This document shows, piece after piece, positions 18,830 to 36,699 of a stretch of 59,604 nt of DNA. The DNA lies in contig JAHDLC010000031.1 of NCBI GenBank assembly GCA_018436595.1, positions 1 through 59,604 of the forward strand. The letters run 5' to 3'. The stretch's first letter is position 1. Each line of letters starts with the position of its first letter. The translations under genes and the position numbers were made by a program. A model generated the notes under the pieces. That model was not told the DNA's origin and ran no database searches. It worked only from the letters and a program-made list of their open reading frames with translations. Source of the stretch: Synergistaceae bacterium. Its GTDB lineage: Bacteria > Synergistota > Synergistia > Synergistales > Aminobacteriaceae.

Positions 18830-19010
18830 CGAAGGGCTTTCGCCGCACGATGCTCGGGAAGCCGGTGAAAATCCGGCGCGGACCCGCCACTGTAAGCCTG
18901 ACGAACCCATCGGTCCACTGGAGGGAAAACCTCCGGGAAGGGATGGGGGAGGACGAGGGCAAGCCAGGAGACCGGTCGTGCGGAACCAGGGAAGACTCGC
19001 GAGGAATCGA
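18830..19010 (+). promoter_or_regulatory. Cobalamin riboswitch (upstream of cbiK)
   Basis: The core contains GGGAAGCCGGTGAAAATCC, followed by GCGCGGACCCGCCACTGT (the B12 box), a peripheral GGAGGGAAAACCTCC hairpin, and the closing AAGCCAGGAGACC element. These are the defining blocks of the class I cobalamin aptamer. Adenosylcobalamin binding is expected to reduce expression of the cbiK-btuCDF-cbiL operon downstream. Confidence 0.95.
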
Positions 19011-23428: not shown

Positions 23429-24343
23429 GTGGGCGGCATCGACTGGACCGGACTGCTGAAGGGCATGGGGCTCCTGGCCCTGTCCGTGTCGGGCGGCCTC
23501 GCCCTGGGAAAGGCCATCATCGCCCTGTCCCTCCCCGAACGGCTCCTGGGTTCCCTGCTGCCCCGGCTGCGCCGTCTCCGGATTCCGGCCCAGGCCCTCT
23601 TCGCCCTCGGCGTGAGCCTGGGATCCTCCAGGGCGGGGTCGGCTCTCGTAGCGGAAGCCTACGGCCAGGGGATCCTCTCGGAGCGGGAGGCCCTCTTCGG
23701 CACCCTGCTCCAGTCCTTTCCCGGCTACCTGAAGCGGTGGCTCGTCTCCTTTCCCGTGGCGGCGGCCCTCGCCGGGACTGCGGGGGCCATCTACTCCGCA
23801 GCGGTGCTGGCCAGGAGCTTCTGCCGTTTTCTGCTCTTCCTGTTCCTGCTCCGGGGGCGGGGGGCCACAGAGAATGAGGAATCCGTCCGCGGAACGGAAG
23901 GCCGCAGGGGACGGGAATTTTCCTTCTTCGGAACCCTGGCGAGAACCCTGCCGGCCGCGTGGGCCTTCTACGCCCTGGCGTACCTGGCCACCCCGGCCCT
24001 GCAGGAGTTCATCGAGGCCAGGGGAGCCTCTTTCCCCCTGCTTTCGGCGGCGGGGTGGACCGTGGCGGCGGCGTCCTTCGCCCATGTCAACGCGGCCCTC
24101 GGCGTGGCGGGGGGAGCCCTGGCGTCGGGGAGCCTCACCACTGCCCAGGCGGTGCTGGCCCTGCTGACGGGGAACATGCTCGCCGTGCTCTCCCGGGTGC
24201 TGCGGCAGGACATCGCCTTCTGGATCGGCATTTTCCCGGGGCGGATGGTCCGGTCCCTGTTCGTGTGGAACCTCGTCACCCTGGTGGCGACCATGGCGGC
24301 GACGGTGTGCCTTGCGGCCGTGCCCGTCTTGTGGGGATGGTAG
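23429..24343 (+). CDS. GATE (nucleoside-recognition) domain membrane protein
   Basis: A 304-residue protein with about eight hydrophobic helices in two halves separated by a charged loop (about 148-166). Both halves have the small-residue-rich gate motifs of the nucleoside-recognition family (for example LGVSLGSSRAGSALVAEAYGQG near 66 and HVNAALGVAGGALASGS near 218). Position in a B12 riboswitch operon between cbiL and hemL suggests transport of a cobalamin-pathway compound, such as a lower-ligand base, alpha-ribazole, or cobalt. That is inference. It starts at a GTG after GAAGGAGGGGAAGG. Confidence 0.7.
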   Translation: MGGIDWTGLLKGMGLLALSVSGGLALGKAIIALSLPERLLGSLLPRLRRLRIPAQALFALGVSLGSSRAGSALVAEAYGQGILSEREALFGTLLQSFPGYLKRWLVSFPVAAALAGTAGAIYSAAVLARSFCRFLLFLFLLRGRGATENEESVRGTEGRRGREFSFFGTLARTLPAAWAFYALAYLATPALQEFIEARGASFPLLSAAGWTVAAASFAHVNAALGVAGGALASGSLTTAQAVLALLTGNMLAVLSRVLRQDIAFWIGIFPGRMVRSLFVWNLVTLVATMAATVCLAAVPVLWGW

Positions 24344-24369
24344 GAAAGGTTTCGGAAAACTCAGGCAGA

Positions 24370-24533
24370 GGGAGTGTCGCCGGGCATTAGGTGAATTCGC
24401 CCCCAGGGCGAAGAGAGGACCCCCTGGGGGGCAGCGCCCGGGCCGGGAAACCGACAAGGATGTCGGTTTCAGGCGCAGTTGTCACGGATGACAATGTGCG
24501 CCGACGGCCCAAGCGAGCACCGGTGACGCTCCC
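24370..24533 (+). ncRNA. Candidate multibranched structured RNA upstream of hemL
   Basis: A 14-base-pair closing helix (24370-24383 with 24520-24533, two wobble pairs) encloses a hairpin at 24400-24430 (nine pairs, 13-base loop ending GAGAGGACC) and an inner helix GGGCCG/CGGCCC (24440-24445 with 24505-24510). The inner helix holds two further hairpins: a perfect nine-pair stem with loop AGGA (24448-24469), and a roughly 13-pair stem with loop CGGA and one bulge (24472-24502). No known riboswitch core is recognised. GGA in hairpin loops, especially ACAAGGATGT, matches the CsrA/RsmA binding consensus. It ends 40 bases before the hemL ATG. Confidence 0.65.
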
Positions 24534-24573
24534 CGCTGCCACAGGATACGCAGAGAAAGAGAGGCTGATTGCT

Positions 24574-25851
24574 ATGGCGACGAGTGCGGAGTGGTTCACC
24601 CGGGCGAAGGAATCCCTCGCCGGGGGAGTGAACAGCCCTGTCCGCTGCTGGCGGGGCGTGGGCGGAGACCCCCTGTTCTTTTTCCGGGGGGAGGGCCCCT
24701 ACCTCTACAGCGTGGAGGGGAAGCGCTACACCGACTACGTGGGGAGCTGGGGCCCCCTCATCCTCGGCCACGGCCACCCCGAGGTGGTGGAGGCCGTCTG
24801 CCGGGCCGCCTCCGACTCCACGTCCTTCGGGGCGTGCTGTCCCGCCGAGGTGGAGCTTGCCGAGGAAGTGAAGGGGGTCTTCCCCTCCATGGAGCTCCTC
24901 CGGTTTGTCTCGTCGGGAACGGAGGCGGTGATGACCGCCCTTCGGGTTGCCCGGGGGTTCACGGGGCGGGACCTGGTGGTGAAGTTCGAGGGGTGCTACC
25001 ACGGCCACTCGGACAGCATGCTGGTGAACGCCGGGAGCGGCGCCCTGACCCTCGGGAATCCCGACAGCGGCGGCGTCCCTGCTTCCGTGGCGTCCGCCAC
25101 GGTGGTGGTGCCCTTCAACGATGAAGAGAAGGTCGCCGAGGCCTTCCGGCTGTTCGGCGGGCGCATCGCCGCCGTGATCGTGGAGCCCTGGGCGGGGAAC
25201 ATGGGCCTGGTGCCTCCCTGCGAAGGCTTTCTGCCCTTCCTGCGGGAGATCACGGAGAAGCACGGCGCCCTGCTGGTCTTCGACGAGGTGATCACCGGAT
25301 TCCGGGTCCCCGAGGGAGGGGCTCAGCAGAGGGCCGGTATCGTCCCCGACCTCACCTGCCTCGGAAAGATCATCGGCGGGGGGCTTCCCGTGGGGGCCGT
25401 GGGCGGCCGCCGGGAGGTCATGGAGGTGCTCGCCCCCCTCGGGCCGGTGTACCAGGCAGGAACCCTCTCGGGGAATCCCCTGGCCATGGCGTCGGGACTG
25501 GCGACCCTCGGGGTGCTGAAGCGGGAAGGGGTTTACGAGCAACTGGAGGAGAGGGCCGTCCTGTTCGCCGACGGGCTGAAGGATGCCGCTTCCCATGCCG
25601 GGATCCCCCTGTCGGTCTCCCGGTTCGGCTCGGTGCTGGGGCTGTTCTTTGCTCCCCGGCTTCCCCGGAACCTCGGGGAGGTGAAGGGGACGGACGGGGC
25701 GAAATACCCTCCCTTCTTCCACGGCATGGAGGAGAGGGGGCAGTACTTCGCGCCGTCGCCTTTCGAGGCCGCCTTCGTCTCCCTGGCCCACGGCCGGGAG
25801 GTGGTGGAGGAGACTCTCGCCGCCGCCGGGGAGGTCTTTACCTCCCTGTGA
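24574..25851 (+). CDS. hemL: Glutamate-1-semialdehyde 2,1-aminomutase
   Basis: A 425-residue PLP enzyme making 5-aminolevulinate from glutamate-1-semialdehyde, the second step of the C5 tetrapyrrole route. The start gives AKESLAGGVNSPVRCWRGVGG at residues 10-30, the usual N-terminus. LVFDEVITGFRV near 235 and the PLP-lysine CLGKIIGGGLPVGAVGG near 260 are typical. GAGAGG lies nine bases before ATG 24574; the longer in-frame opening through the structured RNA is not coding-like. Its last 14 bases overlap the convergent hemB end. Confidence 0.95.
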   Translation: MATSAEWFTRAKESLAGGVNSPVRCWRGVGGDPLFFFRGEGPYLYSVEGKRYTDYVGSWGPLILGHGHPEVVEAVCRAASDSTSFGACCPAEVELAEEVKGVFPSMELLRFVSSGTEAVMTALRVARGFTGRDLVVKFEGCYHGHSDSMLVNAGSGALTLGNPDSGGVPASVASATVVVPFNDEEKVAEAFRLFGGRIAAVIVEPWAGNMGLVPPCEGFLPFLREITEKHGALLVFDEVITGFRVPEGGAQQRAGIVPDLTCLGKIIGGGLPVGAVGGRREVMEVLAPLGPVYQAGTLSGNPLAMASGLATLGVLKREGVYEQLEERAVLFADGLKDAASHAGIPLSVSRFGSVLGLFFAPRLPRNLGEVKGTDGAKYPPFFHGMEERGQYFAPSPFEAAFVSLAHGREVVEETLAAAGEVFTSL

Positions 25852-36394: not shown

Positions 36395-36595
36395 TGAAAA
36401 GATCTCCAGGGAAGCCGACCCGAACCCTCGCAGGCGTCACACCGAAATGTCCCCTCCAGGGTCTTCTGGCTTCCCTCATCCTCGCCCGTCCCTTCCCGGA
36501 AACTCCGGTGGTACGGCGGACTCGTCAGGTACACAGCGGCGGGACCGCGCCGGATTCGCACCGGCCTTCCCCTTGGAGAAGAATCGTTCATTCAT
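36395..36595 (-). promoter_or_regulatory. Cobalamin riboswitch (upstream of cbiC)
   Basis: Read on the minus strand it has GGGGAAGGCCGGTGCGAATCC, then GGCGCGGTCCCGCCGCTGT (B12 box), a GGAGTTTCCGGGAAGGG peripheral element, and GGGAAGCCAGAAGACC closing the core. All class I cobalamin blocks appear in order. It controls the ten-gene cbiC-to-hemB operon. No clear promoter could be picked upstream because dispersed repeats begin close by. Confidence 0.95.
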
Positions 36596-36699
36596 GAAAG
36601 AACCGTCTTTCATATATGATCATCGTAATCTCAGCGGCCGAAAGTGTCAATCTCGGGATGGGTAGATGATGGGATGGGCAGAGTGCACCTGGCCCCTCT

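Follow-up and report, generated by a model that had tools for sequence, protein, structure and literature searches.

A TwoAYGGAY-type double hairpin upstream of hemL in a Synergistaceae genome is probably the cargo of a decayed IS1380-type MITE copy

Results

The window analysed here, a 59,604-nt stretch of contig JAHDLC010000031.1 from a Synergistaceae bacterium (assembly GCA_018436595.1), holds a modular structured element between a gene for a membrane-protein-like product and hemL (Table 1). The name hemL, for a gene that starts some 30 bp after the element, was taken from the sequence-only reading of this DNA and from pathway context; Pfam gives the aminotransferase family. A Pfam search with the upstream gene returned no match. 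According to an ORF/GC3 heuristic, an upstream extension of the hemL reading frame is all that overlaps the element, and a search for a sigma-70-like promoter near it found none. Two cobalamin riboswitches (18831-18994, plus strand, 94.8 bits; 36439-36615, minus strand, 73.4 bits) sit at the edges of the cobalamin/haem gene cluster that contains hemL. A known riboswitch at hemL itself was considered and rejected: Rfam gave only a sub-threshold match to TwoAYGGAY there, the rest being chance matches, and the cobalamin riboswitches lie elsewhere in the window.

Table 1. Features at the hemL locus, in positions of the window.
Feature	Position	Strand	Basis
Upstream gene, 304 aa, membrane-protein-like	23429..24343	+	ORF; stop 20 bp before the element
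Inner part of MITE copy, modular structured element	24364..24540	+	BLAST to ~20 genomic copies (query 21-197 of 24344-24573) and copy alignment
Long closing helix, 5' strand GGGAGTGTCGCCGG	24370..24383	+	Fold; two-sided changes across copies
Optional module A (side hairpin arm)	24386..24432	+	Alignment of copies
TwoAYGGAY core, two GGA-loop hairpins	24447..24503	+	cmscan RF01731, 41.7 bits (gathering score 43)
Hairpin 1 GAAACCGACAAGGATGTCGGTTTC, containing ACAAGGATGT (CsrA consensus core)	24447..24470	+	Fold
Hairpin 2, containing TCACGGATGA	24472..24502	+	Fold
Long closing helix, 3' strand CCGGTGACGCTCCC	24520..24533	+	Fold; two-sided changes across copies
hemL, glutamate-1-semialdehyde aminotransferase (class III aminotransferase)	24574..25851	+	ORF; PF00202 (Aminotran_3), E 8.7e-68

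The fold drawn in the sequence-only reading, with a closing helix, a side hairpin and two long hairpins that expose AGGA and CGGA loops, is present in our prediction, the closing structure of which spans 24364-24540 and so goes slightly beyond the 24370-24533 originally outlined. The minimum free energy of 24364-24540 is -109.9 kcal/mol, compared to a mean of -74.1 for shuffled versions (z = -8.0), and none of 200 dinucleotide shuffles was as stable.

When the 230-bp leader was used as a BLAST query, it matched about 20 other sites of its own genome (3.2 Mb), which rules out an unrelated palindrome. Alignment yielded 19 full-length copies including the one in the window, plus remnants, with a core of 132-223 bp (~165-255 bp with ends). 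Arm A, the side hairpin, is found in 7 of these 19 copies and absent from 12, and in four another arm (arm B, CAGGCAGGCAACCGGCGAACGCAGGGAGCCGAGTTGATCGCCTGG) separates the two GGA hairpins. In other copies arm A reads GAGACAAT, GAGAATAT or GAGATCAT; the loop GAGAGGA, once proposed as a third CsrA/RsmA-like site, is peculiar to the window copy and hence not a conserved GGA site, in contrast to the sites in the two long hairpins, which held up (see below). By the ORF/GC3 heuristic, the other 18 full copies are all intergenic. As for orientation relative to the downstream gene, the count is 13 of 19 copies, a bias that is not significant and, as expected, fits a parasite as much as a regulator. 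Among 83 genomes of the family, carriers are the own genome, two congeners and one representative of another genus. Four additional loci may be solo or degraded ends belonging to this repeat family, one of them beside CAAGGA, and suggest older generations.

IS1380 elements have ends that start with CC and generate 5-bp target duplications. Intact copies of the element start with CCTAAATCCGCAG and finish with TGCGGATTTAGG (13-bp ends), and an exact 5-bp target duplication accompanies 8 of the 12 intact-ended copies in the own genome and 34 of 44 when the sister genomes are included (shuffles: mean 0.8, maximum 5). With the flanks joined, seven of eight pre-insertion sites match uninterrupted sequence in the sister species G001 and thus represent empty sites, and the eighth holds an insertion of the same 165-bp element in G001. 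The outer terminal inverted repeats (TIR) and target site duplication (TSD) looked for at the window copy are absent; its outer ends have decayed, so that the insertion which produced it can no longer be seen directly. An insertion sequence (IS) with CCTAAATCCGCAG-type ends and the duplication ACTTT is split over two contig ends of the own genome, both halves matching the IS1380 transposase model, and an intact 1.9-kb IS in the sister species G004 has the TIR of the MITE, the TSD CGGTC and a 533-aa transposase that scores 174 bits (E 3.6e-51) against the IS1380 model NF033539, slightly under the curated cut-off of 180. An Rfam search of this IS gave no relevant RNA family and, in particular, no match to TwoAYGGAY, which identifies the hairpins as cargo, and since the resident IS1380-family element shares the ends and the 5-bp duplications yet is free of such hairpins, we class the element as an IS1380-type MITE that, to judge from the shared ends, is presumably mobilised by the resident transposase. 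Many contigs of G001 (six among them) and of G004 have a copy of the IS1380 element at an end; as both assemblies break at this element, copy numbers are to be read as minimum values. A mir-3926 match at one locus lies outside the IS and was dismissed as a chance match to a perfect hairpin.

Whether the element belongs to hemL can be judged from its relatives. Its location after the upstream stop and before the start of hemL, in hemL orientation and next to a gene from a cobalamin/haem cluster, together with the copies at the same place in sister species, would suit a hemL-specific leader that is controlled by CsrA or senses a ligand and gates 5-aminolevulinate synthesis, as had been considered in the sequence-only reading. 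However, the orthologous hemL leaders of G001 and G004 carry their copy on the opposite strand and with other modules (in G001, Rfam places TwoAYGGAY on the minus strand with 42.6 bits), so that sense-strand control of hemL is not conserved; nor is a conserved sense-strand structure found at hemL in these two relatives. In addition, the nearest conserved GGA lies ~90 nt from the hemL start codon and the element occurs at 19 places in the genome. A dedicated hemL leader is, in our opinion, very improbable, and the window feature is best read as a mobile regulatory element copy rather than a hemL-specific switch.

The core of the element resembles the TwoAYGGAY family (RF01731), and this supersedes the initial impression that no known class could be recognised. 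The window copy scores just under the gathering threshold (Table 1); in the whole own genome 15 copies match the model, two of them above threshold (45.2 and 45.0 bits), and several copies including these two align over model positions 1-168. Taken literally, AYGGAY fails in hairpin 1 of the window copy (AAGGAT). Among 48 distinct copies from four genomes, the base before GGA takes all four letters and belongs to the most variable columns, and GGA itself is kept in 48/48 copies in hairpin 1 and in 47/48 in hairpin 2, each copy having two GGA hairpins of the CsrA consensus type. Standard pairs make up 96% of the pair cells in this set, and both partners have changed in 9 of 52 pairs (for instance, C-G to T-A at columns 15/117 of the copy alignment, in the closing helix), albeit pair changes in an inverted repeat can also arise at the DNA level. 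Together with the shuffles above, these figures bear out the original claim that the pairing goes beyond chance. G-U cells outnumber A-C cells (99 versus 35), an excess most of which comes from two consensus wobble positions and which, as far as sequence can tell, favours the GGA strand being a folded RNA.

A double-hairpin pattern run over GTDB genomes found at least 118 loci, many from single Pseudomonas genomes, and among the matches listed are also Marinobacter, Pantoea, Lachnospiraceae and others, with outer sequences that are unrelated; some single matches, one in an archaeal MAG included, may be due to chance. In genomes picked by this pattern, so that the counts are not a survey, four Pseudomonas genomes have 64, 47, 37 and 29 RF01731 matches, a Lachnospiraceae genome has 34, a Eubacterium MAG 14, a Marinobacter 13 and a Pantoea 12; 14 control genomes gave none. 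The double hairpin of the Lachnospiraceae genome caps an inverted repeat with arms of ~100 nt, the ends of which were inspected for TIR and TSD and are too fuzzy to show a duplication. In Pseudomonas sp. CAN1, TwoAYGGAY copies are embedded as the core in a larger composite repeat, which runs on into CTTTTGGTTAC..GCCCGAGGGGGCGAAAC and often has GGCTCT/GGCTTT tandem repeats in front of it. Identical double GGA hairpins are also repeated, with different outer sequence, at four loci of MAG JPNA_metabat.86; an RF01731 search of this MAG gave 0 matches, so the class of double-hairpin repeats may exceed the Rfam model.

These data bear on the option that the element is a purely selfish MITE, the RNA fold of which has no regulatory role and the hairpins of which persist because the copies are young. 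Copies that are 85-99% identical and polymorphic in their presence between species would be in line with this, but the invariant GGA beside a four-state loop base, the two-sided changes and the reappearance of this core across phyla, in repeats that are otherwise unrelated, are not, and we regard a purely selfish element as quite unlikely.

CsrA has the SELEX consensus RUACARGGAUGU, the GGA of which sits in a hairpin loop, and ACAAGGATGT in hairpin 1 is an exact match to its core. A search of the host genome for csrA, as suggested at the outset, found the gene: there is one csrA, and its product keeps Leu4, Arg6 and Arg44, residues with functional roles in CsrA. The reading frame just upstream of it resembles the C-terminus of FliW. 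Association with csrA was examined in 250 genomes of one Lachnospiraceae family, that of the 34-copy genome, in which RF01731 occurs in 39 and csrA in 128 genomes. Carriers of RF01731 have csrA in 38 of 39 cases (97%) and non-carriers in 90 of 211 (43%), which amounts to an odds ratio of 51 (p 9.7e-12) with shared ancestry ignored; the sole carrier without csrA is a 1.6-Mb genome that is possibly incomplete. This co-occurrence supports, at the level of sequence, an earlier proposal from the RMfam study, called unvalidated there, that TwoAYGGAY binds CsrA (PMC4333381), and, with about half of the family's genomes having csrA, renders that proposal directly testable. The CsrA resemblance noted in the sequence-only reading has thus gained from the TwoAYGGAY match, from the invariance of GGA and from the csrA association in an independent clade, and the cargo RNA of the copies very probably binds CsrA. 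Lachnospiraceae B94_19, with 34 TwoAYGGAY copies, has seven CsrA-family matches, six of which are frames of 110-124 aa, and extra csrA paralogs are seen in four other RF01731 carriers too; csrA paralogs and repeats are possibly co-evolving.

Discussion

Our findings point, with a probability of roughly 0.7, to a decayed IS1380-type MITE copy upstream of hemL that carries a dual-hairpin RNA of the TwoAYGGAY type and is, as such, a mobile and predicted dual-site CsrA binder. Mechanistically, the IS1380 transposase would mobilise the MITE via the common 13-bp ends and leave 5-bp target duplications, and transcription of the copies would most likely come from read-through of adjacent genes. One CsrA dimer would bind per copy, each of its two faces being offered A-N-GGA-Y by one hairpin, and the 20-40 dispersed copies per genome might serve as CsrA decoys as well as local CsrA-binding UTR modules whose effects on neighbouring transcripts would be local. 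A CsrB-like sponge, which was among the initial suggestions, is a possible role for the family of copies. The place before hemL would represent one insertion, and any influence on this gene would be incidental.

The main rival sees the hairpins acting as DNA, in the form of cruciforms or single-stranded hairpins during transposition or excision, with the CsrA likeness being accidental. It can draw on the long palindromes of the element, which is a DNA transposon, and on the fact that covariation between inverted repeats is expected for DNA hairpins, too. Yet the IS with the same ends does without hairpins, the same double hairpin occurs in other phyla within repeats whose ends are unrelated, GGA is fixed next to a free loop base and csrA is found in 38/39 carriers. 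The first, second and last of these points weaken a role as DNA and make it, to our reckoning, improbable.

Returning to an RNA that binds CsrA, one may tentatively envisage a wider scenario, in which transposable repeats in several phyla have adopted a CsrA/RsmA-binding double hairpin and transposition tunes the pool of free CsrA and plants CsrA sites by genes. Such a mobile, copy-number-encoded CsrA sponge could be an answer to what TwoAYGGAY RNAs are, though we hold this to be rather less than an even bet. If this is true, transposition would open a global post-transcriptional regulator to titration; we did not find such a path of regulatory evolution described in the literature searched. 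The present data also recast TwoAYGGAY, reported in 2010 as a candidate RNA (Weinberg 2010, PMC2864571) and of unknown function ever since, as cargo of mobile or multi-copy repeats. The TwoAYGGAY family, the CsrA proposal and MITEs are already known; a TIR/TSD-bounded carrier of the IS1380 type, genome-scale copy numbers across phyla and co-occurrence with csrA were not found in the literature searched, which comprised texts outside subscription and without supplements, and a search for CsrA together with MITEs or repeats returned nothing relevant.

How does the element compare to known systems? Like TwoAYGGAY RF01731, it has two adjacent, conserved GGA-loop hairpins inside an outer helix, whereas here they are carried as cargo by a transposable element that is bordered by TIR and TSD, has optional extra arms and reaches 20-40 copies per genome; searches of PMC2864571 and PMC4333381, which describe a candidate RNA or sRNA, found no passage on transposition of this family. 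With CsrB, RsmY and RsmZ it shares GGA hairpins that match the CsrA consensus, here in pairs, but those are one or few dedicated sRNA genes and the element provides two sites per copy in many dispersed copies, the one in the window yielding no sigma-70-like promoter when searched. Relative to IS1380-family insertion sequences (e.g. ISEcp1), the MITE has the TIR and TSD length of the resident IS1380 element and differs in being devoid of a transposase, the ends alone being common to both. Finally, ERIC, Correia and REP are bacterial MITE or palindromic repeat families that are short, intergenic, palindromic and transcribed by read-through. Our element resembles them in being short, intergenic and palindromic, and what sets it apart is its cargo, a double hairpin of the CsrA type.
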